IMG/VR virus record: IMGVR_UViG_3300029985_000073
Location: 1 to 43,436 of that record
DNA: 43,436 nt
Strand: one strand, 5' to 3'
DNA from: a virus
In this document: piece after piece, positions 3,259-40,349 of the stretch
How the letters are laid out: each line of letters begins with the position of its first letter
Position numbering within the stretch: the first letter of the stretch is position 1
Translations under genes and position numbers: made by a program
Notes under the pieces: model-generated
What the model saw: the letters and a program-made list of their open reading frames with translations, nothing else
What the model was told of the DNA's origin: nothing
Databases searched by the model: none

Positions 3259-4172
3259 CTTATTTTATCCCCTTTTTCTAAATTTCCAATAGAAGTCATA
3301 TCACCATTTTCTCTAGCTATTGCCGTCGTAGCCCATAGTGGTTGAATGTTAGTATAATGAACTGCTTTTAAAAATTCTTCTCTGTTTGTCAAATCAAAGG
3401 AAGAAAGAGGAATAATATGGTCAAGATGCCAAGCATTTCCATAATTCTCCCACGTCATTCCGGTTATAAATTTACCAGAAATATAATGTTTAAAGTATTT
3501 TAATGAGCAGCCTAAATCCTTGGCGGCAGAACCAACCTTAGTTTTTCCTCGTATTGCTTGCCACATCCGAATTCTTAAATAACATGATAACTTATATGGT
3601 ATATCGCTCTGCAACCTAAGGCGTCTCCGCATGTTTATTCTATCTCGATTTTTTGATGCATATTCCTTAATTTTATCCTTATTCTTTAGATAATACTCTT
3701 GATTTCTTTTATTTCTAAAAATTCTATTCTTTATTCCCCAGTCTTTTGCGTATGCTTTACGTTCGGATATATGATTTTTATAATATTCTTTATTTCTAAT
3801 ATCTATATATTCTTTATTTTTTAAATAATATAATGATTGTTTACGTCTTATCGATTCTTTATGTGTTGCTATGTATGTGCGTTCATATTCTCCCCGCTGT
3901 TCTCGTGTTTTAAATCTGTATTCTTTATCTTTTTGTTTTATCTTTTCTATATTTTTATTTCTATAATCTATAAAATATTGCGTATTATTTTTTCTAAAAT
4001 TTCTACTACGTGCATTGTTTTTCTCTTTATTTTTTAGATGCCACATTGCCCTTTTTTCTTTTAGAGTTAAAGTAACTCTGCATTCTTTTTCGTTTACATT
4101 CTTCTCTATTTTTTGCATAGTAATCTCGCCGCCACTTACGTTGGGCGATTTTAAGTTGTTCTCTTGTTTCAT
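3252..4172 (-). CDS. HNH homing endonuclease with basic YY-repeat N-terminus
   Basis: A 306-residue free-standing HNH nuclease. Residues about 45-190 are repeats of lysine/arginine-rich helices with YYLKNKE-like motifs, as seen in many phage and giant-virus HNH proteins. The HNH core is near the C-terminus: HLDHIIPLSS, then NIQPLW. The ATG at 4172 lies inside the MGRKK leader ORF (4027-4191), in its +1 frame, and has no ribosome site of its own. Either internal initiation or a +1 shift near 4027 joins the two; residues after the leader stop continue the same kind of basic repeat. It sits between the clamp and clamp-loader units. Confidence 0.85.
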   Translation of the reverse strand: MKQENNLKSPNVSGGEITMQKIEKNVNEKECRVTLTLKEKRAMWHLKNKEKNNARSRNFRKNNTQYFIDYRNKNIEKIKQKDKEYRFKTREQRGEYERTYIATHKESIRRKQSLYYLKNKEYIDIRNKEYYKNHISERKAYAKDWGIKNRIFRNKRNQEYYLKNKDKIKEYASKNRDRINMRRRLRLQSDIPYKLSCYLRIRMWQAIRGKTKVGSAAKDLGCSLKYFKHYISGKFITGMTWENYGNAWHLDHIIPLSSFDLTNREEFLKAVHYTNIQPLWATTAIARENGDMTSIGNLEKGDKISC

Positions 4173-4191
4173 ATATTTTTTTTCGTCCCAT
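4027..4191 (-). CDS. MGRKK leader ORF of the HNH cassette
   Basis: A 54-residue, highly basic peptide (MGRKKIYETREQ..., then RRDYYAKNRE). A class II motif runs directly into AAGGAG, giving a good Shine-Dalgarno site 11 bases before this ATG. It is therefore the best-supported translation start of the cassette. It ends at AAA-AAA-TAA within the HNH ORF, which is in the +1 frame. Related leaders occur at seven other loci in this window. Function unknown; a DNA-binding or regulatory role, or the N-terminus of a frameshifted nuclease, are the options. Confidence 0.6.
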   Translation of the reverse strand: MGRKKIYETREQLKIAQRKWRRDYYAKNREECKRKRMQSYFNSKRKKGNVASKK

Positions 4192-4205
4192 AATTAGGTT
4201 CTCCT

Positions 4206-4215
4206 TATAAATATA
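4206..4215 (-). promoter_or_regulatory. -35-less promoter motif plus Shine-Dalgarno of an endonuclease cassette
   Basis: TATATTTATA on the minus strand followed immediately by AGGAG and then, after 10 bases, the ATGGG start at 4191. An almost identical arrangement lies at 6141-6150, and a close one at 9833-9842. Confidence 0.55.
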
Positions 4216-4242
4216 TAACAAACAACAAAAAACTCCATACAA

Positions 4243-4995
4243 TTAAGATTTATTATTACTAAATTGATAATAGTTACATGTAAACGTTGGATTCTTAAAT
4301 GATATATGTATCATATTCTGAGCATTGTTAATAAATAATACTCCACCGGCCATATCGGAATTCGATTTCAAAATTTCACATATATTCTTAATCGGGAATT
4401 GCATTGCCGAGGTTAGTTTATTCTTAACGGAGTCCGTGGGTGGCGTTAGACGTATTTTATTTGAATTTGAAGTTAAATACCCAAACACCATTTCAAATAC
4501 ATTTTTCTTATTCATTCCAACCGCAAATAAATCAACATCCTTCAATGCCATTTTAGACTTTATAATTTTTTCAATAAGGTCGTCAGTCAAGGGAATAATA
4601 ACGTCTGGAGCCGGAAGTGCGTCCACATTCTTCGGAACTGCATCGATTGATATTGGGTCTGCCGCTGCACAGTAGACTTCACAATCAACATCATTGAGAG
4701 TAACTCCTAATACTCTGTCCCCGCTGTCGGTCTTATTCACCGCCATGGTAATATCTTCTCCAAAAGGTTTTAACATTCCCTTCATTTTATCAACATCACC
4801 CACGCAAATAATAGCATCATCAATCCCAAATCCATCAAAATCATTTAAAATTACGTCTACCATAAAACTACGATTGTCGCATACAGCACGAGCATGTAGA
4901 GTTTTATTAGCGGCTGTATATTTGAGTTTAACTTTTGGAATTACACCTTCCAAACTAAACTTTTTTATAAATAATTCTAGAATTGATTTTTTCAT
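4243..4995 (-). CDS. DNA polymerase sliding clamp (T4 gp45-like)
   Basis: A 250-residue protein identified as the processivity clamp by its repeating beta-strand architecture, acidic character, length close to gp45 (228 in T4) and location beside the clamp loader and polymerase. Recognisable elements are an N-terminal helix (LELFIKKFSLEG), strands in VCDNRSFMVDVILNDFDGFG, and a second-domain helix PLTDDLIEKIIKSK. Sequence conservation in this family is low, so the call is by pattern and context. It has its own promoter at 5005-5033. In T4-like phages the clamp also activates late transcription, which would fit the two promoter classes here. Confidence 0.8.
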   Translation of the reverse strand: MKKSILELFIKKFSLEGVIPKVKLKYTAANKTLHARAVCDNRSFMVDVILNDFDGFGIDDAIICVGDVDKMKGMLKPFGEDITMAVNKTDSGDRVLGVTLNDVDCEVYCAAADPISIDAVPKNVDALPAPDVIIPLTDDLIEKIIKSKMALKDVDLFAVGMNKKNVFEMVFGYLTSNSNKIRLTPPTDSVKNKLTSAMQFPIKNICEILKSNSDMAGGVLFINNAQNMIHISFKNPTFTCNYYQFSNNKS

Positions 4996-5004
4996 TTATA
5001 TGAT

Positions 5005-5033
5005 ATAATAGCATTTATACTCTATAGAGTAAA
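5005..5033 (-). promoter_or_regulatory. Sigma70-type early promoter of the clamp gene
   Basis: TTTACT (5028-5033), 17 bp, TATTAT (5005-5010) on the minus strand, 9 bases before the ATG at 4995. The expected transcript start falls within about 3 bases of the ATG. The upstream endonuclease gene stops 2 bases beyond the -35. Confidence 0.5.
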
Positions 5034-5034
5034 C

Positions 5035-6108
5035 TTATTTTAATTTCCGTTCCAATATTTTATCGATTGACATTATCTCTCGATACGAAATTCTAATCAA
5101 TCGTATGTTATTTTTCACACAATATTCATTTTTAATTCTATCCCGTATTTTTTGACGTTTAAATTCTTCATCCGTCATAATATGACCTCTAAGATTACAT
5201 CCTTTTTTATAATGTTGCTTTCCATCAAATTCTATTAATATATTTTTAATTGGAATATAAAAATCAAATATCAATTTTAGATTTGTTTTGGGATTTCTAC
5301 AATCGGAATATTTCTTTTGATGTATGTATGGTATATTCTTAAACCGTAAGAATTTTAATATTTTAAGCTCTCCTTTAGATGTTTTGCATTTCGGACATCC
5401 CCTTCCACTTAAATGGTCAACCGGCGTTTGTAGGAATTTGGTGCTGCATTTATTGCATATGATATCTACTTTTGTTTTTGCGTTTTCATATTTCACATAC
5501 TGATAATTATAATCATCACCATGAATTCCGATTGCTTTAATAATAAATTCATCTGTATTAGAACTGATTGCCTTAGCTCGGTATTGGATAGCACAGTCCG
5601 AACATCCATGTCCGCTGAGATGCTGGTTTGGGGTTTGCTCAAATATTTTTCCACATGTATTACACTTAATCGTTACTGGTGTTCTAGAATTGACATATTC
5701 AACAGATATATAATCGTAACTGTTATTATGCATCTCAGCGGATTTAGATATAAAAACATCGGTTGTTAATCTACGTTTAAGTCCCATAGCTATAAAGGAA
5801 CAATCACGACATCCTTTACCACTTAAATGATTGCTTGGTGTCTGTTTAAACGTCTTTCCACATGAGTTGCATTTTATACTGACTGGTGTGAGACTATTAG
5901 TATATTTAACATCATCATATGTAAATTTATCTCCATGCAACTCAATTGCCTCTTCTATAAATTTATCTTGCCAACATAACTTACACATTTTTCGAAACTT
6001 TTTTCCAGTATGCTCGCATTCTCTTTTCGGAGAGTTCTTTTTTGTGTCGTTGATAATACAACCTGTTATCTTTTTGTTTAGCGTCTCGTTGCTGTTCGAG
6101 TGTTTCAT
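5035..6108 (-). CDS. Zinc-ribbon repeat plus Vsr-like homing endonuclease
   Basis: About 357 residues from the ATG at 6108. The N-terminal two thirds hold four Cys-pair modules: one CEHTG...CKLC, then three repeats of the form Y-N-T-V-I-C-C-G-F-Q-P-HLSG-GC-C. Each repeat carries a helix ending in HGD or HNN. The C-terminal domain has FDFYIP, LIEFDGKQHY and a following D-R-K-N-E-Y helix, the pattern of Vsr-like (EDxHD, I-Bth0305I-type) nucleases. The frame stays open to 6156, but that ATG precedes the promoter motif, so I reject it. The chosen ATG lies inside the leader ORF at 5981-6127, +1 frame. Inserted between the clamp and a block of small genes. Confidence 0.82.
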   Translation of the reverse strand: MKHSNSNETLNKKITGCIINDTKKNSPKRECEHTGKKFRKMCKLCWQDKFIEEAIELHGDKFTYDDVKYTNSLTPVSIKCNSCGKTFKQTPSNHLSGKGCRDCSFIAMGLKRRLTTDVFISKSAEMHNNSYDYISVEYVNSRTPVTIKCNTCGKIFEQTPNQHLSGHGCSDCAIQYRAKAISSNTDEFIIKAIGIHGDDYNYQYVKYENAKTKVDIICNKCSTKFLQTPVDHLSGRGCPKCKTSKGELKILKFLRFKNIPYIHQKKYSDCRNPKTNLKLIFDFYIPIKNILIEFDGKQHYKKGCNLRGHIMTDEEFKRQKIRDRIKNEYCVKNNIRLIRISYREIMSIDKILERKLK

Positions 6109-6127
6109 ATTTTTTATTTCTTCCCAT
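5981..6127 (-). CDS. MGRNKK leader ORF of the Vsr-like cassette
   Basis: A 48-residue basic peptide (MGRNKKYETLEQQ..., NRLYYQRHKK, KRMRAYW). A class II motif merges into AAGGAG, followed by ATG 11 bases on. It ends inside the nuclease ORF, which lies in the +1 frame. The RMRAYWKK segment matches leaders at the other cassettes. Confidence 0.55.
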   Translation of the reverse strand: MGRNKKYETLEQQRDAKQKDNRLYYQRHKKELSEKRMRAYWKKVSKNV

Positions 6128-6140
6128 AATTGGTTCTCCT

Positions 6141-6150
6141 TATAAATATA
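6141..6150 (-). promoter_or_regulatory. -35-less promoter motif plus Shine-Dalgarno of an endonuclease cassette
   Basis: TATATTTATA directly followed by AGGAG on the minus strand; the leader ATG follows at 6127. The block from the motif to the ATG is nearly identical to that of the HNH cassette at 4191-4215. Confidence 0.55.
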
Positions 6151-6191
6151 AAACACTTATCATAAAATACTGATTATTTTTATTTATTTTT

Positions 6192-6380
6192 TCATTTTTG
6201 TTCTTCGTGAAAGTTATATTCTTGAGCATCTTGTGCCGAGTCAAATACTAATTCTGCGGCGTTGGTCATTTGTTCTATTAGCTTTGGATGAATTAATTGT
6301 TCCCACAATCCATCTTCACAACCATCAATTATTACTCTATTAATGGCTCTTTGTAATTTTACTTTTAATTCTATATTCAT
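6192..6380 (-). CDS. Small acidic protein, unknown
   Basis: A 62-residue helical protein with a WEQLIHPKLIEQM segment and an acidic C-terminus. The ATG overlaps the upstream stop by 4 bases. No family recognised. Confidence 0.6.
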   Translation of the reverse strand: MNIELKVKLQRAINRVIIDGCEDGLWEQLIHPKLIEQMTNAAELVFDSAQDAQEYNFHEEQK

Positions 6381-6607
6381 AAATTTTGAAATTCGACGTT
6401 TAGAATATCGATTTGATTTTCCAATACTTTTTTATATTGTGATTTAAAATCTACCATATGTCCTAACATATATTTCTTAATATGGGGTGCCGCCATATAA
6501 TCAACCGGATAATCTAAATTATAATTATCAATATTATTCAATTGTAATTTTAAATCGCTTATCTGTTTTAAAATATCTTGTCCGTGTTGAAGTTGTTCTC
6601 TTGTCAT
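6377..6607 (-). CDS. Small helical protein, unknown
   Basis: A 76-residue protein starting MTREQLQHGQDILKQIS; two predicted amphipathic helices flank a Tyr/Pro-rich centre. It is ATGA-coupled to the gene at 6192-6380 and lies 31 bases after the gene at 6639-7160. Function unknown. Confidence 0.6.
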   Translation of the reverse strand: MTREQLQHGQDILKQISDLKLQLNNIDNYNLDYPVDYMAAPHIKKYMLGHMVDFKSQYKKVLENQIDILNVEFQNL

Positions 6608-6638
6608 ATTGTGAAGTATATCAACTTTTAATTCTTTA

Positions 6639-7160
6639 TCAACTTATTTTAAATTTTACGGCGTGAGTATTATGAGGAAACTTGATATTTAATTTGGGAT
6701 ATAATACTTTACCATCAATCTTAATAGTTTTAAATTTAACCGGAAACCATTTGGTAAGATGTAGCTTTTCTTTTATCCATTTCCAAGGGTCACATTCAAA
6801 TGTATGGGAAATTACAGTATCATCAGCATATAGTCTATAAAATAACTCAGTTTTCAATTTTCCAGATATATAATCTTGATATTCATTTATTTCCATATCT
6901 ATATCACTTGGAAATAAGTCATTTTCGGCCAATATTGTAAAATTATGTGCCTTCAATGACTTTTCCTGATATGTTCGTTTTTCAATTGCCAGTGCAGACT
7001 CTACCACAGGAATACCATTAAAATTACACTCTATAAAATTAAAATTTGGACTTGGACTATCATTTAAATTTTGCATTTCATTCCTTGTTAGTTGGATATA
7101 TCTTGGGACTATCAAATTAGACCTATACTCATTAATATATTTGTATATCTTGTTAATCAT
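6639..7160 (-). CDS. Unknown protein, 173 residues
   Basis: A soluble protein with no signal peptide or membrane segment. It contains SPSPNFNFIECNFNGIPVVES, followed by basic strand-rich sequence (KWFPVKFKTIKIDGK) at the C-terminal end. I do not recognise the family. Its ATG overlaps the upstream stop by 4 bases, so it belongs to the short-gene block from 8525 down to 6192. Confidence 0.6.
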   Translation of the reverse strand: MINKIYKYINEYRSNLIVPRYIQLTRNEMQNLNDSPSPNFNFIECNFNGIPVVESALAIEKRTYQEKSLKAHNFTILAENDLFPSDIDMEINEYQDYISGKLKTELFYRLYADDTVISHTFECDPWKWIKEKLHLTKWFPVKFKTIKIDGKVLYPKLNIKFPHNTHAVKFKIS

Positions 7161-8224: not shown

Positions 8225-8242
8225 ATTATTTTAAATTTATAA

Positions 8243-8525: not shown

Positions 8526-8537
8526 TATCAAATATTC

Positions 8538-9782
8538 TCATTTATTTAGTTTTTCTCTAAGTATCTCCGGTATTCTCTTTATATTGTAATATGGAATTCG
8601 CAATAAGTCAATATTATTTATTTTAGCGTATTCATTTTTACGGCGGTCATGTTCTTTTATTTTGGCAAACTCCTCGCTAGTCATTGTATGACCTCTAAAA
8701 TTACACCCTAGTTTATAATGTTGAACTCCATCAAATTCTATTAATAAATTATATTTCGGGATAAAAAAATCAAACGGAATCGGCAAATTTCCCAACCCTC
8801 TGCAATCAGCATATCTTTTTTGACAACTATAATCGATAATATTGTCATCTAAAAAATTCATAATTGAAATTTCTCCCTTTGACATTCTACAATACGGGCA
8901 TCCATTTCCAGATAAATGTTCACTTGGCGGCTGGAAAAATTCCTGCTCACACTTATTACACATTATAGTTCCATCTGTATGAGCACCACTATAGATAAAT
9001 TTATCATAATTAAATCTATTTCTATGGATTTCCTCAAATTCCAATATACATACCTGAGTTGTTTTGTGTTTACCGGCACAATAAGGACATCCTTGCCCAT
9101 TCAAATGACAGTCGGCTCGTTGACTAAATATGTTACGACAAGTATTGCATTTCATATCTATTTCGATTTTATTATTCGTGTAACCGTCCAGATAATATGT
9201 AAACTTATCACCATGCACTTTTCTGAAGTCCAATAACACATCTTCTATTTTCTTTCGAGAATTTATCGATGCAATATTTCCTTTGCATTTTGGACACCCA
9301 TGGCCAGCCAAATGACTATAGGGTTTCTGTGAAAATATATACTCGCATATATTGCATTTGATAATTATATCGGTATGAGCATCAATATACGTAACCAATC
9401 CATAGTCGAATCTAGAAATTCCATGTATTACATTGGCATCTATTGTAAATCTAGATAAATCAAATCTATGTATTAAACTAACTTTTTTAGCTTTACATGA
9501 TGGGCATCCCTGACCCTTTAAATGATTATGTGGAGTTTGAGGATATATACTATCACATGATATACATCGTATATTAACTTTTTCTTCGGATTGTATATAT
9601 CGAACATATGAATAATCGTTATTTAATAATTGTTCGTCCGTAAGTTTCTTAATGAATCTATTATACTTACATATATCACATTTTATGCTGAATTCCTTCC
9701 CAATATGATTGCATCCGTTTTTTGCATATGATTTTCTTATGTCGTTGATAATATCTTGCTTGCCTAATTCGTCGTTTTTCAT
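8538..9782 (-). CDS. Zinc-ribbon repeat plus Vsr-like homing endonuclease (second copy)
   Basis: A 414-residue paralogue of the nuclease at 5035-6108. It has five Cys-pair modules, one more than the other copy; the repeats carry HL-GQGCPxC or HLAGHGCPKC-type ends. The C-terminal nuclease contains FDFFIP, LIEFDGVQHY, and a D-R-R-K-N-E-Y helix. The ATG at 9782 lies within the leader ORF (9676-9816), +1 frame, 34 bases after the leader ATG. The cassette lies between the DNA polymerase gene and a run of very small genes. Catalysis and target are unknown; the repeat array probably recognises DNA. Confidence 0.83.
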   Translation of the reverse strand: MKNDELGKQDIINDIRKSYAKNGCNHIGKEFSIKCDICKYNRFIKKLTDEQLLNNDYSYVRYIQSEEKVNIRCISCDSIYPQTPHNHLKGQGCPSCKAKKVSLIHRFDLSRFTIDANVIHGISRFDYGLVTYIDAHTDIIIKCNICEYIFSQKPYSHLAGHGCPKCKGNIASINSRKKIEDVLLDFRKVHGDKFTYYLDGYTNNKIEIDMKCNTCRNIFSQRADCHLNGQGCPYCAGKHKTTQVCILEFEEIHRNRFNYDKFIYSGAHTDGTIMCNKCEQEFFQPPSEHLSGNGCPYCRMSKGEISIMNFLDDNIIDYSCQKRYADCRGLGNLPIPFDFFIPKYNLLIEFDGVQHYKLGCNFRGHTMTSEEFAKIKEHDRRKNEYAKINNIDLLRIPYYNIKRIPEILREKLNK

Positions 9783-9832: not shown

Positions 9833-9842
9833 TATAAATATA
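9833..9842 (-). promoter_or_regulatory. -35-less promoter motif plus ATGAAAGG leader
   Basis: TATATTTATA then AATGAAAGG on the minus strand. The ATGAAAGG segment recurs at 25429, 28918 and 31252 in the same relation to a downstream start, acting as a Shine-Dalgarno-containing short leader. Confidence 0.5.
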
Positions 9843-9881
9843 ACGTAGTTACATAAAACGTAGAAATATTTTCATTTATTT

Positions 9882-12596: not shown

Positions 12597-13036
12597 ACTT
12601 TCACTTCCGATGAACCAGTTATCGTAGGTTCTATTTTAGGAACTTCTGCCGATTGAGTAGTGGCTGGGTCTGGCACTATCTCTACATCTGGAATAACATT
12701 AACCATAGGAATACTACCGGAGGTATCAATATTTCCAATTTCGGGTGGAGATATTTCTATAATGGGTTCCTCGATTTTCTTTGGCTCTTCTTTCTTGATT
12801 TCTACTTTAACCCCGAATTTTTCCATTAACGATATAAAGGTTGGATGTCCTTCTGGCGTTAATTTATCAAAGGACGACACTAAATTTTGAGCCAATACAT
12901 CCTTTCTAAAAAATTTCAAATCATTAATCTCAAACTGAATTTTATGAGAGAGAGGACGACTTGCCACATTCACAAAATAAAGCAACATTCCCATCTCTTC
13001 CTCAGAGAGTGAATTTATAAAATCTGACGATAACAT
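12593..13036 (-). CDS. Unknown protein with Pro/Glu-rich tail, upstream of the polymerase
   Basis: A 147-residue protein. The N-terminal 85 residues form a helical domain (SLSEEEMGMLLYFVNVASR), and the C-terminal 60 are Pro/Glu/Ile-rich and probably disordered. Family not recognised. It is first in the polymerase transcription unit, with an ideal early promoter 8 bases before its ATG, so it is probably expressed early and in step with replication. Confidence 0.65.
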   Translation of the reverse strand: MLSSDFINSLSEEEMGMLLYFVNVASRPLSHKIQFEINDLKFFRKDVLAQNLVSSFDKLTPEGHPTFISLMEKFGVKVEIKKEEPKKIEEPIIEISPPEIGNIDTSGSIPMVNVIPDVEIVPDPATTQSAEVPKIEPTITGSSEVKV

Positions 13037-24998: not shown

Positions 24999-25026
24999 AA
25001 TATTCCGTCGTTTTATGTTTCGACAC

Positions 25027-25036
25027 TATATTTATA
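25027..25036 (+). promoter_or_regulatory. -35-less promoter motif (class II)
   Basis: TATATTTATA, 6 bases before an ATG at 25043 and 32 bases before the MGRKK ATG at 25069. No -35 box. Confidence 0.5.
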
Positions 25037-25068
25037 TAGTATATGAATAATACAACAAATAAAAATTT

Positions 25069-25413
25069 ATGGGAAGAAAAAAGCTTAATCGAACCAGAGA
25101 AGAACTCATTGAACAAAAGCGTGTCCGAGACGCCCGATACTATGTCAAACACGGAAAACGAATTAAAAAAGAACGAATGCGAAAATACTGGAAAAAATGG
25201 ACAAAAAAGTGTCCTGATTGTGGGAGAGAACAAATTTATACGAATAAATATCATTTAAAAAATGCTATAGAGAAGACCAGTTTAAAATCGAAGGATGTTA
25301 TACGTATGAATAACATTATAAAAAATTTAAACTGTAGATTTTTTAGATATAATGAACGGAAAAATGAATTGTTGGAATATAAACTTAATGATGGGGATTG
25401 TAAAGTTTATTGA
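25069..25413 (+). CDS. MGRKK-type basic protein with zinc-finger pair
   Basis: A 114-residue protein. Residues 1-45 (MGRKKLNRTREELIEQ..., ARYYVKHGKR, RMRKYW) are the same module that leads the endonuclease cassettes. Here the same frame continues through KKCPDCGREQIY, one Cys pair, to a unique end, with no nuclease domain. It shows that the MGRKK frame is real coding sequence. An overlapping +1-frame ORF from 25043 (71 residues) is open but ends without a domain. Possibly a cassette remnant or a stand-alone DNA-binding protein. Confidence 0.6.
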   Translation: MGRKKLNRTREELIEQKRVRDARYYVKHGKRIKKERMRKYWKKWTKKCPDCGREQIYTNKYHLKNAIEKTSLKSKDVIRMNNIIKNLNCRFFRYNERKNELLEYKLNDGDCKVY

Positions 25414-25788: not shown

Positions 25789-26544
25789 ATGGAACCAGTC
25801 GTTACACATAGCATATCAATGCCAGAAAGTAGTCCTGCCCTAACCTATGAAACGGTTGGAGTGGAGCGGTTATTGTCTATCGCTCTTAGACGACTTGAAC
25901 AATTGGAAGAAGAAGTTAAAGACCTTAAAACCAATAAAATAATTGAAGAGACTCAATTGGATAGGACTATATTGGATGATAATGGTCTGTTACCTCCACC
26001 GGTCAGAAAAACAAAGAGGGGACGTGGGTATCGTCCACTATTACAATCTGAAATAGAAGATGCTCAGGAGAAAGCGGATACCGCAATGGGAGCGGCAAGA
26101 ATATTGGGAGTATCATATCCACTATTTCGAAAATATGCCAGGCGATATGGCATTCATAAAATAAACCGCTCGGCTACCAGAAAGCCAAATTTATATTCTC
26201 CGGAAAAAGGAAAATACCCCATCAGTGAAATATTAGACAATAAACACCCTCACCTGAATGATTATATAATAAAAGACAAACTTATCCGGTTTAATATATT
26301 AGAACCGAAATGTAATATTTGTGGGTATGATAAACGCCGGGTTGTTGATAATAAGATATGTTTGCTGTTAGACCATAAAGATGGAGATAGGAAAAATAGT
26401 AAATTGGAAAATTTGCAGTTATTATGCCTGAACTGCACCTTCGAATGTGGACGTGGATATATTAGAACTGGAAAGAAGTTATTTGACCCCGACTGGATGC
26501 AAGGCCAGCAAACGCATAATATAAGACCTGATAGCAGATATTAA
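25789..26544 (+). CDS. HNH endonuclease with helix-turn-helix-like region
   Basis: A 251-residue protein. Residues 40-65 form a coiled coil (LRRLEQLEEEVKDLKTN), 100-125 a helix-turn-helix-like unit (AARILGVSYPLFRKYARRYG), and 170-230 the HNH fold with CNICGYD, LLLDHKDGDRKNSKLENL and CLNC zinc ligands. It has no MGRKK leader. It could be a homing endonuclease or a phage-specific DNA-processing nuclease. Confidence 0.85.
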   Translation: MEPVVTHSISMPESSPALTYETVGVERLLSIALRRLEQLEEEVKDLKTNKIIEETQLDRTILDDNGLLPPPVRKTKRGRGYRPLLQSEIEDAQEKADTAMGAARILGVSYPLFRKYARRYGIHKINRSATRKPNLYSPEKGKYPISEILDNKHPHLNDYIIKDKLIRFNILEPKCNICGYDKRRVVDNKICLLLDHKDGDRKNSKLENLQLLCLNCTFECGRGYIRTGKKLFDPDWMQGQQTHNIRPDSRY

Positions 26545-28201: not shown

Positions 28202-28828
28202 TTAATGTTTATGGGTCATGAACAAATGCCAGTCCTGGTGGCGAGCTTTCCGCACTGTATTTGATATCGGAATTGGCCGTGGGTGGTAGGGATTTACAAA
28301 TAATCGAAGGCCCGCCTCCTCTACCGTTTTATTGCCTTTTCTATTATTGATAGCTTTTGTGGTTAAAATTGTGTTGTCGTAGGTATCGGTCCCACCTCTA
28401 CTTAATGGATTGACGTGCTCGATGGTCGCCTCGGACAAATCTATTTCTAGTCCCGTAAATCCATCCGTAAATCCATCACGAAGTCCCAAACCTTCCTTCG
28501 ACGGTTTCCCTTCGAATTTTTTAAATCTAACCTTACTATAATTTTTAGTAACTACCACCGTAGGAATTCTGATATTTAGATTCTTCGAGTGAATTACCAT
28601 ATCCCACGGTCTTATCGGAAGACATGCCCACACGTCCCAATCAACTGGATTAAAATAATCTAATTCGTTTGTGGGATTTCCATATTCATCAAGCTTATAG
28701 TTTATATCAAGTGCTTTAACAGTCCCCGAAACCAAGTCACATATTGTGCGGCCTACCGGTGCAATATCAGTAACGATAAAGTTGGAGTTAAGTTTAAGCA
28801 CTGTTGACCTATTTACAATGTTTTTCAT
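28202..28828 (-). CDS. HNH endonuclease-like protein
   Basis: A 208-residue protein. N-terminal VLKLNSNFIVTDIAPVGR segment and a C-terminal core TIEHVNPLSRGGTDTYDNT...NNRKGNKT, typical of the HNH family that includes many phage proteins beginning with a V-L-N-x-x-x strand. The usual DH is EH here; the second His/Asn pair and Lys are present. It has an early promoter at 28839 and no MGRKK leader. Confidence 0.82.
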   Translation of the reverse strand: MKNIVNRSTVLKLNSNFIVTDIAPVGRTICDLVSGTVKALDINYKLDEYGNPTNELDYFNPVDWDVWACLPIRPWDMVIHSKNLNIRIPTVVVTKNYSKVRFKKFEGKPSKEGLGLRDGFTDGFTGLEIDLSEATIEHVNPLSRGGTDTYDNTILTTKAINNRKGNKTVEEAGLRLFVNPYHPRPIPISNTVRKARHQDWHLFMTHKH

Positions 28829-28866: not shown

Positions 28867-28905
28867 ATATTTTTTCATTATTTCGTTACTATTTTCGTTT
28901 CTGCT

Positions 28906-28915
28906 TATATTTATA
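28906..28915 (+). promoter_or_regulatory. -35-less promoter motif plus ATGAAAGG leader
   Basis: TATATTTATA, then ATATGAAAGG, then the MGRKK ATG at 28940. AAAGG serves as the Shine-Dalgarno. The ATG at 28918 opens only a short frame and is probably just part of the leader. Confidence 0.55.
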
Positions 28916-28939
28916 ATATGAAAGGTTACGATAAACATT

Positions 28940-29107
28940 ATGGGAAGAAAAAAATTAAATCGAACGAAAGAAGAAATCAATGAACGAAACAACATTAAAA
29001 GAATGCGATACTACTGGAAACACGCCAAACAAGAAAGAGTCAACGCCCTTAAACGATATTACAAACGTAAAAGAAAAGATAAGCGGAATATACAAGATAA
29101 TAAATAA
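28940..29107 (+). CDS. MGRKK leader ORF of a GIY-YIG cassette remnant
   Basis: A 55-residue basic peptide (MGRKKLNRTKEEIN..., RMRYYWKHAK, LKRYYKRKRK, NIQDNK). It ends at AAA-TAA inside the GIY-YIG frame, which is +1. Compared with the leader at 31274, most differences in the shared 3' half are synonymous in this frame. Confidence 0.6.
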   Translation: MGRKKLNRTKEEINERNNIKRMRYYWKHAKQERVNALKRYYKRKRKDKRNIQDNK

Positions 29108-29264
29108 GGTTAATGGGAAATATTATGTTGGTAGTTCTACTAATTTAGGTTTCAATCTGAAGTCAATAAAGACTTCGGAACGATTAAAGCATAACAATAT
29201 CAAGGGATTTTATTGGAATGCTTTAGGTAAGGAACCTATAGTTCCTCATGTTCAGAAAAACTAA
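28980..29264 (+). pseudogene. Truncated GIY-YIG homing endonuclease
   Basis: Only 94 residues. KISGIYKIINKVNGKYYVGSSTN is an intact start of a GIY-YIG domain, nearly identical to the intact copy at 31311, but after VGSSTNLG the sequence diverges and stops. The catalytic Arg, Glu and the DNA-binding region are absent. It is probably inactive, retained as a remnant with its leader ORF still open. Confidence 0.7.
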
Positions 29265-31195: not shown

Positions 31196-31239
31196 CTAAA
31201 ATTATTTCGTATTATTTTCGAGTTATTTATAAAGTCGTT

Positions 31240-31249
31240 TATATTTATA
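31240..31249 (+). promoter_or_regulatory. -35-less promoter motif plus ATGAAAGG leader
   Basis: TATATTTATA, AT, ATGAAAGG, then the MGRKK ATG at 31274; nearly the same as at 28906-28942. Confidence 0.55.
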
Positions 31250-31273
31250 ATATGAAAGGTTATAACAACTATT

Positions 31274-31438
31274 ATGGGAAGAAAAAAATTTAGAACTGAA
31301 CAGGAAAAACATGAACTTAAAAAACAATGGAGAATGCGATATTATTGGGAACACGCAGCCGAAGAACGCTCTGCCGCTCTCAAACGATATTATAAACGTA
31401 AAAGAAAAAATAAGCGGAATATACAAGATAATAAATAA
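31274..31438 (+). CDS. MGRKK leader ORF of the GIY-YIG cassette
   Basis: A 54-residue basic peptide (MGRKKFRTEQEKHE..., RMRYYWEHAA, LKRYYKRKRK, NIQDNK). Shine-Dalgarno AAAGG upstream. Stops at AAA-TAA inside the GIY-YIG frame (+1). Confidence 0.6.
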   Translation: MGRKKFRTEQEKHELKKQWRMRYYWEHAAEERSAALKRYYKRKRKNKRNIQDNK

Positions 31439-32105
31439 AGTTAATGGAAAGTATTATGTTGGAAGTGCCAATAATATTACTGGTATTGGCGGTAGATGGA
31501 ATATACATATAAATTCGCTGCGTAAGAATACCCATCATAATATATATTTACAGCGGGCTTGGAATAAACACGGTGAGAATGCGTTCGAATTTGTGATTGT
31601 TGAACTAGTAGATTTAATTAAGTTGCGTATAGTTGAGCAGACATATTTAGATAATCGAGATATAGATAAATGCTACAATATTAATCCGAATGCGACTGGT
31701 GGAGGATTGACAGGCGAATGTAAATTAAAAATGATAGCCTCTCTCAAATTATATTATAAAAACAATCCTAAGATATCTAAATTACAAACGCTGGGATGTC
31801 ATACTCCATTAGGAACATCCCATCGCACCAGTTCATTAAATAAGTATTGGAAAAATAATGAACGTGCCAGAGAGATAGCACGTAAAAGAACTAATAATTA
31901 TTTCAAATCTAAAGAAGTAAGAACACACCACGGAATTCAATTCAGAAGTCCGATAATACACCGGTTTCAAAATAAAATCTTAAATGTTATATTTGTAGGG
32001 ACACAATACGATTTTAGAATGAAGTATAATTTATCAAGGGGCGTTTCCTCCGGATTGGTTACTGGTAGAATTAAAGTGTCAAATGGATGGACTATAATAA
32101 AATAG
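31311..32105 (+). CDS. GIY-YIG homing endonuclease
   Basis: A 264-residue protein. KISGIYKIINKVNGKYYVGS is the GIY-YIG signature (residues about 36-55), followed by GRWNIH with the catalytic-type Arg, and FEFVIVELVD and the Glu of IVEQTYLD. The C-terminal 120 residues are basic, with a helix-turn-helix-like end (FRMKYNLSRGVSSGLVTG). The ATG at 31311 lies within the leader. Its stop overlaps the convergent receiver-domain gene by 14 bases, so the cassette adjoins that gene's 3' end. Confidence 0.87.
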   Translation: MNLKNNGECDIIGNTQPKNALPLSNDIINVKEKISGIYKIINKVNGKYYVGSANNITGIGGRWNIHINSLRKNTHHNIYLQRAWNKHGENAFEFVIVELVDLIKLRIVEQTYLDNRDIDKCYNINPNATGGGLTGECKLKMIASLKLYYKNNPKISKLQTLGCHTPLGTSHRTSSLNKYWKNNERAREIARKRTNNYFKSKEVRTHHGIQFRSPIIHRFQNKILNVIFVGTQYDFRMKYNLSRGVSSGLVTGRIKVSNGWTIIK

Positions 32106-34896: not shown

Positions 34897-34905
34897 AATA
34901 TTGAA

Positions 34906-34933: not shown

Positions 34934-34979
34934 CTAAAATTATTTGTTACTTTTTTGTTACTTTTCTAAAAGTCGATGA

Positions 34980-34989: not shown

Positions 34990-34993
34990 GTGT

Positions 34994-35998
34994 ATGAACG
35001 ATACCACAACAATAAACCAAAGTCAAGAGAAAGATGTTACATTATGGGAAGAATTAAAAAATACAACACAACTGAAGAAAAGCGAATTGCCAACAACTCC
35101 AAGCGAATGCGCTATTACGATAAACATAAAAGACTCGAAAGGAAACGAGCACTCGATAGATATTATAGGAATGTGGGGAGATTATTATAGAAAGAAGGTC
35201 GGCGTATATTTGATACATTGTCTGGGAAATAATAAAATCTATATTGGGTCGGCACTTAATTTATACATACGCATATATGACCATAGAAGATACCTTAGAC
35301 TAAATACTCACCCAAATACATATTTGCAAAATTCATATAACAAGTATGGGATTGATATGTTTAGATTTTATATTATTTCGGAATGTCCGATACTAGAAAA
35401 GGACGATTTGGAAACTTGGTATATAAAAAAATATGACAAATTCGGAATATTATTCAACGTAATTAAAGAAGCTCGTGGATCGATGGGACGTAAAATGTCA
35501 CAAGAAAGTAAAGATAAAATTTCACGAGCAAACACCGGAAAACCATCGAATAAACTAGGAGTTCCAATGTCTATAGAACAGAGGAAGTTATTGTCAATAA
35601 TAAAAACTGATACAATTGGAAAACACATAAAAGTATTTACTTTAAATGGAGAATTTATCGAAACGATACGTGGAATTGGAAATACATATCGAAAGTATAA
35701 TATTAGAAAACATATATTACAGCGAATATTAAGGGGTAAGATATATGGTAGTGATAATTATACTTTTAGATATGTCGAAGATGAGTTTGCAAAATATTCC
35801 TCAAAACTAAGACTATTGCAGCTAGAGCGGTCAGTTAAAATATATCAAACAATCACCACGACCGATTTTGATGTTAAGACACTGGCGCAGATGTTTGATT
35901 GTTCTGAAATAACCATTATACGACACATGGAGAAGTATATTTCTTCTATATATACCAAGATACAGTTATTTAGGAAAGCCAGTTCCTCTGAAGTTTGA
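34994..35998 (+). CDS. GIY-YIG homing endonuclease with C-terminal DNA-binding region
   Basis: A 334-residue protein. KKVGVYLIHCLGNNKIYIGS (residues about 71-90) is the GIY-YIG signature, followed by RIYDHRRYL and a Glu in DLETWYI. MGRKMSQESKDKISRANTGK and KLGVPMSIEQRKLLS are NUMOD3-like DNA-binding motifs. A helix-turn-helix-like end (KTLAQMFDCSEITIIRHM) follows. Unlike other cassettes, this frame starts upstream of the MGRIKK ATG. It overlaps the convergent radical SAM gene by 29 bases. Confidence 0.87.
   Translation: MNDTTTINQSQEKDVTLWEELKNTTQLKKSELPTTPSECAITINIKDSKGNEHSIDIIGMWGDYYRKKVGVYLIHCLGNNKIYIGSALNLYIRIYDHRRYLRLNTHPNTYLQNSYNKYGIDMFRFYIISECPILEKDDLETWYIKKYDKFGILFNVIKEARGSMGRKMSQESKDKISRANTGKPSNKLGVPMSIEQRKLLSIIKTDTIGKHIKVFTLNGEFIETIRGIGNTYRKYNIRKHILQRILRGKIYGSDNYTFRYVEDEFAKYSSKLRLLQLERSVKIYQTITTTDFDVKTLAQMFDCSEITIIRHMEKYISSIYTKIQLFRKASSSEV
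35044..35190 (+). CDS. MGRIKK overlapping ORF of the GIY-YIG cassette
   Basis: A 48-residue basic peptide (MGRIKKYNTTEEKR..., RMRYYDKHKR, LDRYYRNVG) fully inside the nuclease ORF, which is in its +1 frame. No Shine-Dalgarno. It keeps the RMRYY and RYY motifs of the other leaders. Confidence 0.4.
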   Translation: MGRIKKYNTTEEKRIANNSKRMRYYDKHKRLERKRALDRYYRNVGRLL

Positions 35999-36848: not shown

Positions 36849-36855
36849 ATGGATG

Positions 36856-36883
36856 AGTATATTGATTATCTATTGGATGTCAA
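36856..36883 (-). promoter_or_regulatory. Sigma70-type early promoter of the radical SAM gene
   Basis: TTGACA (36878-36883), 16 bp, TATACT (36856-36861) on the minus strand; 7 bases to the ATG at 36848. Confidence 0.7.
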
Positions 36884-36888
36884 TAATT

Positions 36889-36987
36889 TTATCTGCACCA
36901 TTGACATTTTCCATTCTTCAACTCTCTACCACATTTCATACACGTCCACATGGCAGCAATCATTAATTTTATGACTTTATCCATCAT
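36889..36987 (-). CDS. Very small zinc-ribbon protein
   Basis: A 32-residue frame starting MMDKVIKLMIAAMW, then CMKC and CQWC pairs 9 residues apart. It overlaps the end of the gene at 36977 by 11 bases and ends 6 bases before the next promoter. Small size makes it uncertain, but the paired cysteines are regular. Confidence 0.45.
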   Translation of the reverse strand: MMDKVIKLMIAAMWTCMKCGRELKNGKCQWCR

Positions 36988-37375
36988 GATTGGCCTCGAT
37001 ATTAAACAACGACGTTAAACTGGATAATAGTTTAGCAGTTGTTGCTCCGATTGGGTTATTAATATCTTTACACTTCACCAATAAGCGGATACTACGATAA
37101 TCATCATAATCATGGTCTTTTACCCATTCCTCATATGATTTACCACTATCACCATAATCATTATTCTTGAAATGTTCCAAATCAATTTCAACGGTAAATA
37201 AATCCTCACAGGTATATTTACTATCACCAACTTTAAGAATGCCATTGATAATTTCTTTAACGGATGAAACTGTATTTTCATCGGCAGCGACATAAATCTC
37301 GGTGCTGCTGTTCGTTATAAGGTCGACGAAACTGTGAATTTTAATTGTATAAGAATCTTGTAGTATATTTTTCAT
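36977..37375 (-). CDS. Unknown protein, tandem paralogue
   Basis: A 132-residue protein whose N-terminus (KIHSFVDLITNSSTEIYVAADE) nearly equals that of the adjacent gene at 37380-37820, followed by shared VKEIING and C-DLFTVEID segments. The two are clearly duplicates, 4 bases apart. Acidic middle. I do not know the function. Confidence 0.7.
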   Translation of the reverse strand: MKNILQDSYTIKIHSFVDLITNSSTEIYVAADENTVSSVKEIINGILKVGDSKYTCEDLFTVEIDLEHFKNNDYGDSGKSYEEWVKDHDYDDYRSIRLLVKCKDINNPIGATTAKLLSSLTSLFNIEANHDG

Positions 37376-37379
37376 ATTT

Positions 37380-37820
37380 TTAATAGTTACTGCTTTCTTC
37401 GATGGTAAATAATCCGGTTAAATCTGATAAAACCTCGGCAGTTTGCTTTCCAAGTTTACTGGTTGGGTCGGTGCATTTAACCAATAAGGAAACACCCCGT
37501 CCATAATCATTCTCTTCGTTTTTTTTGAAGAATTCTTTAGGAGTTAGTTTTTTAGATTTATCATTTTCAGTATATTCGTCTTCCTCTTCATAATCCTCGC
37601 CACCATAATCATCATAATATTTTTGATAGTCAATTTCAACGGTGAATAAGTCGTCACAAGTCAAATCACTCTTTGCCAAGGCAAGAATATTATTGATAAT
37701 TTCTTTTACGGCTTTTACGGTTTTATCACCGGCAGCAACATAAATTTCAGTGCTACTATTAGTTATTAAATCCACAAATGAGTGGATGGTTAGGACGTAT
37801 TTATTTTTTAATGTATTCAT
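37380..37820 (-). CDS. Unknown protein, tandem paralogue with acidic insert
   Basis: A 146-residue protein; LTIHSFVDLITNSSTEIYVAAGD matches the gene at 36977-37375. It carries an extra Asp/Glu/Tyr-rich run (GGEDYEEEDEYTENDK) around residues 75-92. ISLLVKCTDP-like end is shared too. Function unknown. Confidence 0.7.
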   Translation of the reverse strand: MNTLKNKYVLTIHSFVDLITNSSTEIYVAAGDKTVKAVKEIINNILALAKSDLTCDDLFTVEIDYQKYYDDYGGEDYEEEDEYTENDKSKKLTPKEFFKKNEENDYGRGVSLLVKCTDPTSKLGKQTAEVLSDLTGLFTIEESSNY

Positions 37821-37825
37821 ATTTT

Positions 37826-38044
37826 TTATTTATAGTTTACTTCAAATTTTAAAATTCTATCGGCAATTTTTGCTAATAACTCAGGTGCTTCCGAGGAGAT
37901 ATTATCATCTTGACAAATTGCTTCTCCGCTATAGGTGTTATGTTCTGCAAAGAATTCCATAATAGCATCATATAATAAATCCTTAGTTTTCTGGTCATTA
38001 TTAAATGATAAGGTATACTCTTCGGTTTCTTCTGTTTTTCTCAT
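37826..38044 (-). CDS. Small acidic protein, unknown
   Basis: A 72-residue protein starting MRKTEETEEYTLSFNND; mostly helical, acidic. Lies one base after the gene at 38046. Not recognised. Confidence 0.6.
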   Translation of the reverse strand: MRKTEETEEYTLSFNNDQKTKDLLYDAIMEFFAEHNTYSGEAICQDDNISSEAPELLAKIADRILKFEVNYK

Positions 38045-38045
38045 A

Positions 38046-38255
38046 TTATTTTTCTGCTGATATTACTTCAATTTTCGGCGGGAATTTTGGCAACTTTCTC
38101 CAGTATAATACAACCACATCTGTCATATTAGGATTATCGAATATCCAATGATTATCGATAAATTGAGCCACGCACATAATCTCTCCATCCGAGATTAATA
38201 GACGTTCATTTTCGTTTGGTTTGTTTACTATACATCTGTTCCATTCATCATTCAT
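38046..38255 (-). CDS. Small protein, unknown (DUF551-like end)
   Basis: A 69-residue protein. ERLLISDGEIMCVAQFIDNHWIF and VVLYWRKLPKFP match the strand pattern of short phage proteins with a C-terminal W-x-x-LP-x-P-P motif. First gene of its unit, 7 bases after the -10 of the promoter. Confidence 0.65.
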   Translation of the reverse strand: MNDEWNRCIVNKPNENERLLISDGEIMCVAQFIDNHWIFDNPNMTDVVVLYWRKLPKFPPKIEVISAEK

Positions 38256-38262
38256 AACCTCT

Positions 38263-38290
38263 ATTATATCAGATATTGGAGAATTGTCAA
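38263..38290 (-). promoter_or_regulatory. Sigma70-type early promoter
   Basis: TTGACA (38285-38290), 16 bp, TATAAT (38263-38268) with TG extended -10, minus strand; 7 bases to the ATG at 38255. Confidence 0.75.
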
Positions 38291-38360
38291 CTAAAAAATA
38301 ATTTCATTTTGTTTGACGTTTTTATTCACCGGCAGACTTAAATCTATATATGGATGGAAA

Positions 38361-39392
38361 TTATTCCAATCCAACGTTCTTATTTAATTTTCCAAAATAC
38401 CATTTTCTGGCTTGCTTGGAAATTGCACCATTAATGTCTTTGGGGGTTAATCCATTAGCAGCAATGGTGTCTGATTCTTCTTTATTAATATCATTAACTA
38501 ACCACCTCAAATAATCGCCCATCAATTTTTCGTCTATTGGCTTGTTTAGGGTTAATAAATAATCATATGCTTGCTGACAGCGACCTTCATCAACATATCG
38601 TTCCACAAAATCATCAATAGATTTTAATTTTACGGTATCAATGGTGGCTAGTTTAGTAACTTTACTTTTACTATGAGCCGCTCCCTTGCATTTGTAAACG
38701 TATTTAGATGATTTATATTCATCCTCAACACTTGAAAAAACAAGTCCTTCTCCAATGCCAGAAATACCAAACCACTTGGCAACCGGACATTCATTCTCAA
38801 CTTCCATGACCCATTCATTCATTTTATTAATATCATCGGCAGGATGCTCGAAATCAATCTCAATTTCTTTAACCCCGAATTGACGAATAGAATAAATATT
38901 ATATTTATTAAGTGGAGTTAAGTCTTTATCCGTTAACGTAATCCATTTAGATGTCCCTTCATCATCAGAAATTGTCTGGACACGAAAGATTGCCCATTTC
39001 TTATCTAATTGAGAAACCCCAACGGTATCTTGAATTCCTTTTCCAAATTCTTCGCCAAAAATGACGACATTATCACCGAACAAAGATTTGAGATAGTTAA
39101 TTGCTTCGATTGGAAGTGCCGCAATAAATTTAGCAAATCCATAACAATCATTAACAATATCAATTTCATTGTTACGTGATTGACATGTGATTTTATCACC
39201 TTCGATACGAATAGACATATTTGAGCCATGAATTTTCACGGTTCCTTCATATTTTACTTTCGGGAGTGTTGCTAAACGGTTCATAATGGGGTCTCCATTA
39301 CTATCAACTCCGACAAATTGTGCTTTATGCTGGATGTTTCGTAGAACGTTCCTAAATTGTTCCACGTCTGCGAATTTAATTAGTTTACTCAT
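38361..39392 (-). CDS. RNA ligase, T4 Rnl2-like
   Basis: A 343-residue nucleotidyltransferase. Motif I KIHGSN with nucleophile Lys53, CQSRNNEI (motif Ia region), NVVIFGEEFGKGIQ (motif III), EGLVFS (motif IV) and YKCKGAAHS (motif V) match Rnl2 RNA ligase, which seals nicks in RNA. The C-terminal part is the helical domain typical of Rnl2. Length equals T4 Rnl2 (334). Promoter 10 bases before the ATG. It probably works with the kinase at 29985-30458 in RNA repair. Confidence 0.92.
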   Translation of the reverse strand: MSKLIKFADVEQFRNVLRNIQHKAQFVGVDSNGDPIMNRLATLPKVKYEGTVKIHGSNMSIRIEGDKITCQSRNNEIDIVNDCYGFAKFIAALPIEAINYLKSLFGDNVVIFGEEFGKGIQDTVGVSQLDKKWAIFRVQTISDDEGTSKWITLTDKDLTPLNKYNIYSIRQFGVKEIEIDFEHPADDINKMNEWVMEVENECPVAKWFGISGIGEGLVFSSVEDEYKSSKYVYKCKGAAHSKSKVTKLATIDTVKLKSIDDFVERYVDEGRCQQAYDYLLTLNKPIDEKLMGDYLRWLVNDINKEESDTIAANGLTPKDINGAISKQARKWYFGKLNKNVGLE

Positions 39393-39402
39393 AATTTTTG
39401 GT

Positions 39403-39430
39403 AGTATATCAAAGTTAATTTAAATGTCAA
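39403..39430 (-). promoter_or_regulatory. Sigma70-type early promoter of the RNA ligase gene
   Basis: TTGACA (39425-39430), 16 bp, TATACT (39403-39408) with TG extended -10, minus strand; 10 bases to the ATG at 39392. Confidence 0.75.
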
Positions 39431-39451
39431 CTAAAAATAATTTCACTTTGT

Positions 39452-39483
39452 TTGACTCTTTTTGTTTTGACGATATATTTATG
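39452..39483 (+). promoter_or_regulatory. Promoter combining a -35 box with the class II motif
   Basis: TTGACT (39452-39457), 16 bp, TATATT (39474-39479), continuing as TATATTTATG. It therefore fits both promoter classes. It lies 5-9 bases before the ATG at 39489. Confidence 0.5.
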
Positions 39484-39488
39484 TGTGT

Positions 39489-40349
39489 ATGAATGATACA
39501 TTAACCAACCACCAAAGTCAAGAGAAAGATGTTATATTATGGGAAGAAAAAAACTCAACCGAACTAGAGAAGAGTTGCTTGAACAACAACGTGCCAGAGG
39601 CAAACGATACTACTATAATAATAGGGAAAGAATATCCATTATCAGAATGGAAAAATATTATAAATCAAAAAATAAGCGGAATATATAAGATAATAAATAA
39701 ACTTAATGGTAAATATTATGTTGGAAGTGCTAAAAATGTTAGGCAACGTTGGTATAGACACGTATGGAAACTTAATAAAGGGACACATCATAATAAACAT
39801 CTACAAAATGTATGGAGAAAATATAATCCAGATATATTTCGTTTTGTAATCGTCGAATATAGCATTCCCAATAATAAAACGCTATTGTTAATCGAACAGC
39901 GATTTTTAGATATTGCCAAGTCAGAAAGAGATATGGTATATAATATTGCGTTTATAGCAAGAGGTAATCCGGGATATGCTGGTCGGAGACATTCGCCAGA
40001 AACAATAGCAAAAATGAAAAAGTCAGCAAAAAATAGACCAATACGGAAGCATAGCGAAATAACAAAAATTCGAATAGGATTAAAAAGTGTCGGACGCTTT
40101 TATTCAAGTCGAACTAGATTAAAAATGAGTCAATCGGCAAAAAATAGACCGGAGATATCTTACACTACTCGCCAGAAATTAAAACAACCAAAAGATAAAA
40201 CCATACACTCATTCATTAATACAAAGACGGGAGAAATGTTTAGTGGATTTAAACATCACTTTATAATGAAATATGGCCTAAACAGGACATCCGTATACCA
40301 AGTAATAAATAAAAAATATAAGAAAGTAGGAGATTGGACGCTTATTTAA
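39489..40349 (+). CDS. GIY-YIG homing endonuclease
   Basis: About 286 residues from the ATG at 39489. The frame is open to a GTG at 39483. KISGIYKIINKLNGKYYVGS is the signature (residues about 64-83), with QRWYRH and the Glu of LLIEQRFL. NUMOD3-like GRRHSPETIAKMKKSAKN follows, then a helix-turn-helix-like end (MKYGLNRTSVYQVI). The nuclease frame is open from an ATG ahead of the MGRKK ATG. It ends 5 bases from the convergent gene at 40355. Confidence 0.87.
   Translation: MNDTLTNHQSQEKDVILWEEKNSTELEKSCLNNNVPEANDTTIIIGKEYPLSEWKNIINQKISGIYKIINKLNGKYYVGSAKNVRQRWYRHVWKLNKGTHHNKHLQNVWRKYNPDIFRFVIVEYSIPNNKTLLLIEQRFLDIAKSERDMVYNIAFIARGNPGYAGRRHSPETIAKMKKSAKNRPIRKHSEITKIRIGLKSVGRFYSSRTRLKMSQSAKNRPEISYTTRQKLKQPKDKTIHSFINTKTGEMFSGFKHHFIMKYGLNRTSVYQVINKKYKKVGDWTLI
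39539..39688 (+). CDS. MGRKK overlapping ORF of the GIY-YIG cassette
   Basis: A 49-residue basic peptide (MGRKKLNRTREELLEQ..., KRYYYNNRER, MEKYYKSKNK) inside the nuclease ORF; the nuclease is in the +1 frame. No Shine-Dalgarno. Same length and motifs as the leaders that do have ribosome sites. Confidence 0.4.
   Translation: MGRKKLNRTREELLEQQRARGKRYYYNNRERISIIRMEKYYKSKNKRNI

Follow-up and report, generated by a model that had tools for sequence, protein, structure and literature searches.

Homing endonucleases and their regulators

I-TevI and other intron-encoded endonucleases of phage T4 are transcriptional autorepressors (PMC2988022; for I-TevI see Edgell et al. 2004, doi 10.1038/nsmb823, as cited in PMC2988022). 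Type II restriction-modification systems encode C proteins, such as C.PvuII (PMC2997769, PMC3874152); the C and R genes overlap, by a reported ~20 nucleotides (nt), but are translated independently (PMC2997769), and natural C-REase fusions occur (PMC3850674). Moraphages carry modules of a CcdA/HicB-like antitoxin and a PacI-like homing endonuclease, on whose regulation the authors speculate (PMC12619734), and the free-standing seg and mob endonucleases of T4 are intergenic, some with late promoters and with start codons overlapping the upstream gene (PMC2988022). Here we describe a group of cassettes, first seen at eight loci in a 43,436-nt stretch of DNA from an uncultured virus (IMG/VR record IMGVR_UViG_3300029985_000073; hereafter the window), in which a short open reading frame (ORF), termed the leader, overlaps a nuclease ORF in the +1 frame. 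The window encodes a family-B DNA polymerase of T4 type, whose nearest match in cultured phages is that of Microcystis phage Mel-JY01 (36.5%). From the sequences we conclude that the leader is a predicted DNA-binding protein of roughly 50 residues, sequence-specific and not described before, that would regulate both its own promoter and the overlapping homing nuclease. The leader frame is under constraint, the nuclease has starts in the +1 frame, the upstream region has the structure of an operator and that operator covaries with residues of the leader.

A close parallel is with I-TevI, in that expression of a phage homing endonuclease is predicted to be limited by a protein bound to an operator over the promoter of the nuclease gene. 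There, however, the nuclease itself represses, whereas here specificity would be carried by a separate small protein family, encoded in another frame and found with nucleases of unrelated families, and the operator would consist of a tandem repeat. With the C proteins the leader would share the role of a small DNA-binding protein that regulates its own expression and whose gene accompanies, and overlaps, that of a dangerous endonuclease, together with independent translation initiation and the occurrence of natural in-frame fusions. C proteins are helix-turn-helix proteins, however, whereas the leader has no Pfam match, is predicted to form one long helix and lies almost wholly inside the 5' part of the nuclease ORF. 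The moraphage modules likewise combine homing endonucleases, present in several copies in large aquatic phages, with a small regulator that putatively binds DNA, but use known antitoxin families, and the passage on them mentions no overlapping frames, operators or specificity code (PMC12619734). The seg and mob genes resemble the cassettes as intergenic homing endonuclease genes of T4-like phages, but have no dedicated regulator ORF and overlap resident genes by only ~1–24 base pairs (bp). The cassette is not a member of the I-TevI, C-protein or moraphage systems: the protein family is another one, specificity lies in a separate small protein and the overlap is near-complete. An earlier note on this DNA, made from the sequence alone, knew of no described system with an overlapping leader common to several nuclease families; we too failed to find this layout in open-access papers, and its novelty is provisional.

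A leader family shared by several nucleases

The eight MGR-type leader ORFs start where the earlier note had placed them (Table 1; loci are named here by these starts) and align as one family, with M1, G2, R3, Y24, Y25 and Y40 invariant. An overlapping +1-frame nuclease had been claimed at seven of them. The overlap is in +1 at all eight, although two of the nucleases are decayed, the +1 frame closing after 72 codons at 25069 and after 101 codons at 28940; and the +1 ORF starts ahead of the leader at three loci in the window (25043, 34994 and 39489), not at two. The 114-codon length of the 25069 leader reflects a frame-0 run-on into a former zinc-finger stretch. Pfam and PHROG searches gave GIY-YIG matches for the ORFs starting at 31311, 34994 and 39489 and for the short fragment at 28980, and phrog_559 ('HNH endonuclease', Vsr/DUF559-like) for those at 5035 and 8538. 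ORF 3252–4172 had no significant match in either database, its HNH-like DHIIP...NIQPLW motif being recognised by eye only.

One leader used as query against viral contigs yielded 74 loci and an alignment scan 77, mostly the same set, giving 80 distinct loci once duplicates had been removed and the window loci included. Profile searches of 20 whole records added further copies, 12 of them in one 354-kb genome, and these were kept as held-out data. In all, ~100 distinct homologous leader loci are found in other uncultured phages, with at most 12 per genome, and the leaders have ~45–60 codons. At 95 of 103 loci the longest ORF downstream lies in the +1 frame. The exceptions comprise a natural in-frame leader–nuclease fusion (L064), two loci at which the nuclease is an ordinary second gene downstream, in the third frame (L072 and L195), and loci that are broken or without a nuclease; decayed nucleases also occur at L045, L048 and L067. 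A Pfam survey of the loci (domains GIY-YIG, HNH, HNH_3, Vsr and NUMOD3) bears out the claim that one leader family is common to GIY-YIG, HNH and Vsr-like nucleases. The conserved GIY-YIG residues are invariant in 26 aligned copies and the catalytic residues beyond the overlap are retained, so that the catalytic domain keeps the conserved active-site residues seen in free-standing phage homing endonucleases.

In cultured phages, tblastn gave no credible match to the leaders, although low-complexity filtering may hide matches. One GTDB contig carries a leader cassette (L148, JAPLWP010000089.1, 4.6 kb, from a Candidatus Magasanikbacteria metagenome-assembled genome); the contig is possibly viral and perhaps hints at a host. 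Queries with polB, RNA ligase and clamp genes found neither close relatives nor empty insertion sites, the cassettes being multicopy and paralogous. A divergent branch of leaders (L192, L195, L198 and L186; MGRKxxNKTYEQxL..RAxEYY) has CGTTTA-like upstream repeats and a +1 frame that is often closed; here the nuclease may be a separate gene.

A probable promoter box and a proposed tandem operator

Most leaders are preceded by a box, TATATTTAT(A), upstream of which lies a tandem repeat with the pattern NNNNACG-TTTTATNN-NNNNACG. The half-sites, of 6–7 bp, are alike within a locus and unlike between loci: with the comparison anchored on the constant letters only, the variable letters agree between the two halves in 197 of 272 cases, against 108 ± 7 (maximum 145) when halves are shuffled between loci. 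A free search for the best repeat in the 80 loci returned a spacing of 15 bp in 48 and of 12 bp in 17. When eight whole records were searched with the operator-plus-box pattern, 16 of the 19 matches lay directly upstream of leaders, the remaining three being at the mismatch limit, and a reversed control pattern had no match in the same records.

Two non-nuclease genes of the window (minus-strand starts 673 and 1312) also have a box, TATATTTATA, with the ATG ~4 nt behind it and neither a repeat nor a Shine-Dalgarno sequence, as would suit translation from late mRNAs that are nearly leaderless. Since the box stands before these genes without the repeat, and other genes have TTGACA...TATAAT-like promoters, the box is probably a phage promoter of late type and the repeat private to the cassettes. 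That the box is a late promoter of the T4 type, belonging to the opposite strand, was considered and rejected: the box consistently precedes leader starts and the two ordinary genes. The Shine-Dalgarno sequence is also missing from most other window genes. A second promoter class in the window, TTGACA ... TGATATAAT/GATATACT, lies ~10 nt before the ATG at 13036, 28828, 29599, 31075, 34896, 38255, 39392 and 40573 (all minus strand) and is probably early.

In 55 of 97 loci the first ATG follows the box by 4–7 nt, which suggests that the cassette mRNAs too are nearly leaderless; this first ATG belongs to the nuclease in 49 of the 97 and to the leader in 36. The nuclease starts had been thought to lack any initiation signal, but the +1 ATG, where it comes first, sits 5–7 nt 3' of the promoter box. 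The paralogues at 28906–28940 and 31240–31274 have, in addition, a third-frame ATG (ATGAAAGGTTAC/TAT) 3 nt after the box and ahead of the leader, which would encode a very short peptide only.

We propose that each locus is a compact mobile cassette of promoter, operator, small regulator and homing nuclease. The leader, of 45–60 residues, would bind the pair of half-sites just upstream of, or overlapping, its own TATATTTAT promoter and so autoregulate a single mRNA carrying both leader and nuclease. Translation of the nuclease from this common mRNA would begin in the +1 frame at an ATG of the nuclease's own, 5–60 nt ahead of the leader start or 19–140 nt inside the leader, and the overlap may prevent regulator and nuclease from being parted or falling out of step as the cassette moves. 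Judged from the sequence data as a whole, it is very probable that the leader autoregulates its own promoter and the overlapping nuclease, repression being likelier than activation.

Repression is favoured because the period-15 operators cover the −13 to −35 region, where RNA polymerase has to bind, and because I-TevI does likewise at a T4 late promoter (PMC2988022). The same small protein might instead activate its own late-type promoter, as MotA or a C protein would: the promoters have no TTGACA-like −35 element, the period-15 operator takes up that region, some period-12 operators lie further upstream and C proteins act both ways (PMC3874152). Yet the box seems to work alone, given the two non-nuclease genes that use it without a repeat, and in the best-studied phage precedent, I-TevI, binding blocks the late promoter (PMC2988022). 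Activation by the leader is possible but, on this balance, unlikely; a two-way switch of the C-protein kind is a further possibility.

Translation of the nuclease

Every +1-frame nuclease has an ATG of its own in the open +1 segment ahead of the nuclease domain (95/95 loci, where shuffling of synonymous leader codons leads one to expect 39). Start positions are complementary: an internal +1 ATG is present at all 43 loci that lack an upstream one, against 26 of the 52 that have one (Fisher p = 3.5e-9, relatedness ignored). At L048 and L186 the +1 frame is closed until just ahead of MKISGIYK and MKSGIYK, respectively. No slippery site or heptamer is common to the junctions, the commonest heptamer occurring in 26 of 76 loci, and conserved leader residues show free codon choice up to the leader end.

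The earlier note had left open coupling, internal initiation and a +1 shift. The universal ATG, the complementary use of starts and the lack of a shared junction heptamer point to independent initiation at a +1-frame ATG, and we conclude, on these sequence grounds, that this is how the nuclease would be translated; a frameshift is not required, although a minor frameshift product may also be made. Were the leader the N-terminal DNA-binding domain of the nuclease, joined to it by a programmed ribosomal +1 shift near the leader end, the conservation of the +1 relation (95/103) and the one natural in-frame fusion would be readily explained. The downstream ORFs, however, have starts of their own, no conserved shift site is apparent, codon choice is free where a shift signal would lie and two loci (L072 and L195) have the nuclease as a separate downstream gene, all of which makes programmed frameshifting quite improbable, and it was rejected.

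Covariation of the operator with leader residues

In 46 period-15 loci, the leader positions that share most mutual information with the half-site bases are residues 17, 21 and 16 (z up to 9.6–10.8), followed by residue 29; most equally variable positions have values of ~0–1. When only distantly related pairs are compared, residue 17 is found in all ten best residue pairs and in the top triples. Leader motifs go with particular half-sites: QSNxRSK with TTCACG, QTNIRSK with TTTGACG, QQRxRAK with TATGACG/A, ERRxRQM with TCTACG/A, QKRxRD with CCGTCG/TTCGACG, QNRIRQ with CCTAACG, LNRIRL with TCTAATG and QSxxRM with TCTTACG. At the held-out loci, operators predicted from the earlier leaders matched at 0.77 against a baseline of 0.60, and none of 1000 permutations did as well. 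Operators within one genome are not more different from one another than chance (0.60 against 0.57 ± 0.04).

If the nuclease rather than the leader bound the repeats, as I-TevI binds its operator, operator similarity should follow nuclease type. It does not: loci with the same three leader residues have operator identities of 0.83–0.85 whether or not the nuclease type is the same (0.83 where it differs), and those with different leader residues have 0.56 irrespective of whether the types match (0.560 against 0.562). The operator tracks leader residues and not nuclease type, so that, the I-TevI precedent notwithstanding, an operator recognised by the nuclease's own DNA-binding domain is very improbable and was rejected.

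AlphaFold2, run with 52 leaders, predicts a single helix over residues 10–41 (predicted local distance difference test score, pLDDT, 93), in a single-chain prediction that cannot show a dimer. Residues 16, 17, 20, 21 and 24 fall on one face of this predicted helix, as would be expected of a major-groove recognition helix. The 52 leaders have no significant Pfam match, to CcdA/HicB-like antitoxins or otherwise, and PHROG gives weak, unnamed matches only. With the single helix, the Pfam result and the outcome of the structure searches (below), the helix-turn-helix fold of C proteins is not seen. Operator-like repeats at the putative promoter of the leader, which is encoded with an endonuclease, covary with leader residues, as an autoregulatory operator of the C-protein kind might. 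More tentatively, and at somewhat less than even odds, the leaders may be a new class of minimal DNA-binding protein, in which a single recognition helix reads a half-site of 5–6 bp through residues 16, 17 and 21, following a code that could be learned. Dozens of specificities would then have evolved under pressure to provide each selfish cassette with a switch of its own, the regulator being overprinted on the nuclease gene and so inseparable from it.

Several observations weigh against autoregulation by a DNA-binding leader. The repeat scan found no clear tandem operator at 4191 and 6127; the period-12 group is less clear-cut too, and some of its repeats lie up to ~17 nt ahead of the box, where an activator might bind. 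In the distant-pair test the triple 16/17/21 ranks 52nd of 3847 and not first, and covariation with the half-sites is seen at residues 14 and 29 as well; the two may contact the backbone or serve as second contacts, or their signal may come from relatedness of the loci. One held-out locus, L202, is badly predicted and breaks the expected residue-16 rule. The loci are related, making the p-values approximate and indicative only, and searches of the Protein Data Bank (PDB) by sequence and by Foldseek returned no match for the leader.

Constraint on the two frames

The suggestion that the leader is a translated, selected product is upheld by comparison of the two frames in 126 homologue pairs. 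Within the overlap the ratio of non-synonymous to synonymous substitution rates (dN/dS) is 0.28 in the leader frame and 0.95 in the nuclease frame, with mean amino-acid identities of 72% and 52%, respectively. Given the latter ratio and the lower identity, the nuclease frame appears to be kept open and started here, with almost no constraint on its N-terminal residues. The leader can hardly be a non-functional relic, or a sequencing artefact, of a broken leader–nuclease fusion, and this reading was rejected: decayed nucleases do occur (25069, 28940, L045, L048 and L067), but the leader frame is constrained, the leader is conserved over ~100 loci from many samples, the +1 relation is constant despite varying junction lengths and the operator covaries with the leader.

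Features of the window

Table 1 Features of the eight leader cassettes of the window
Cassette	Feature	Coordinates	Strand	Remark
39539	Tandem operator, half-sites TTTGACT (39451–39457) and TTTGACG (39466–39472), period 15	39451–39472	+	
39539	Promoter box TATATTTAT	39474–39482	+	
39539	Leader, 49 amino acids (aa)	39539–39688	+	Proposed DNA-binding autoregulator
39539	GIY-YIG/NUMOD3 nuclease, +1 frame	39489–40349	+	ATG 7 nt after box, ahead of leader
35044	Tandem repeat TTGTTAC x2, period 11	34944–34961	+	
35044	Leader, 48 aa	35044–35190	+	
35044	GIY-YIG/NUMOD3 nuclease, +1 frame	34994–35998	+	Start 50 nt ahead of leader
31274	Tandem repeat TTTCGTA/TTTCGAG, period 11	31205–31222	+	By eye; automatic scan chose another pair
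31274	Promoter box TATATTTATA	31240–31249	+	
31274	Leader, 54 aa	31274–31438	+	
31274	GIY-YIG nuclease, +1 frame	31311–32105	+	ATG at leader +37
28940	Tandem repeat TTCGTTAC/TTCGTTTC, period 12	28882–28901	+	Repeat scan (L007, identical sequence)
28940	Promoter box TATATTTATA	28906–28915	+	
28940	Leader, 55 aa	28940–29107	+	
28940	Decayed, truncated GIY-YIG nuclease, +1 frame	28980–29264	+	
25069	Tandem operator TCCGTCG/TTCGACA, period 15	25004–25025	+	
25069	Promoter box TATATTTATA	25027–25036	+	
25069	Leader with frame-0 run-on, 114 aa	25069–25413	+	Nuclease decayed (+1 ORF 25043–25258)
9816	Tandem operator TTCTACG (9865–9859)/AACTACG (9850–9844), period 15	9844–9865	-	
9816	Promoter box TATATTTATA	9833–9842	-	
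9816	Leader, 46 aa	9676–9816	-	
9816	phrog_559 nuclease (Vsr/DUF559-like, DUF4379 fingers), +1 frame	8538–9782	-	ATG at leader +34
6127	Promoter box TATATTTATA, then AAGGAG	6141–6150	-	
6127	Leader, 48 aa	5981–6127	-	
6127	phrog_559 nuclease, +1 frame	5035–6108	-	ATG at leader +19
4191	Promoter box TATATTTATA, then AAGGAG	4206–4215	-	
4191	Leader, 54 aa	4027–4191	-	
4191	HNH-like nuclease with KEKxK repeats, +1 frame	3252–4172	-	ATG at leader +19; HNH motif by eye, no Pfam match

Two further HNH-like ORFs in the window (25789–26544 and 28202–28828) have no leader, so the module is not used by all nucleases of this phage. The tandem paralogues at 36977–37375 and 37380–37820 both carry IHSFVDLITNSSTEIYVAA. 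An Rfam search of the window found no RNA element.

Implications

The tandem operators and their covariation with leader residues, which the earlier note had missed, give the leader a predicted function. Short leader ORFs of this kind may be dropped by standard annotation. If the proposed mechanism is true, both frames of a same-strand overlap of ~150 nt that is widespread in phages can be functional, and homing endonucleases of several unrelated families are controlled in large phages by one common plug-in regulator. A few residues of this regulator would largely suffice to predict its DNA target, and its action would account for the tolerance of one genome to as many as about a dozen selfish DNA-cutting genes. 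The cassettes would then also offer a natural data set of roughly 100 protein–operator pairs for a minimal recognition code, and a source of compact repressors for phage biology.

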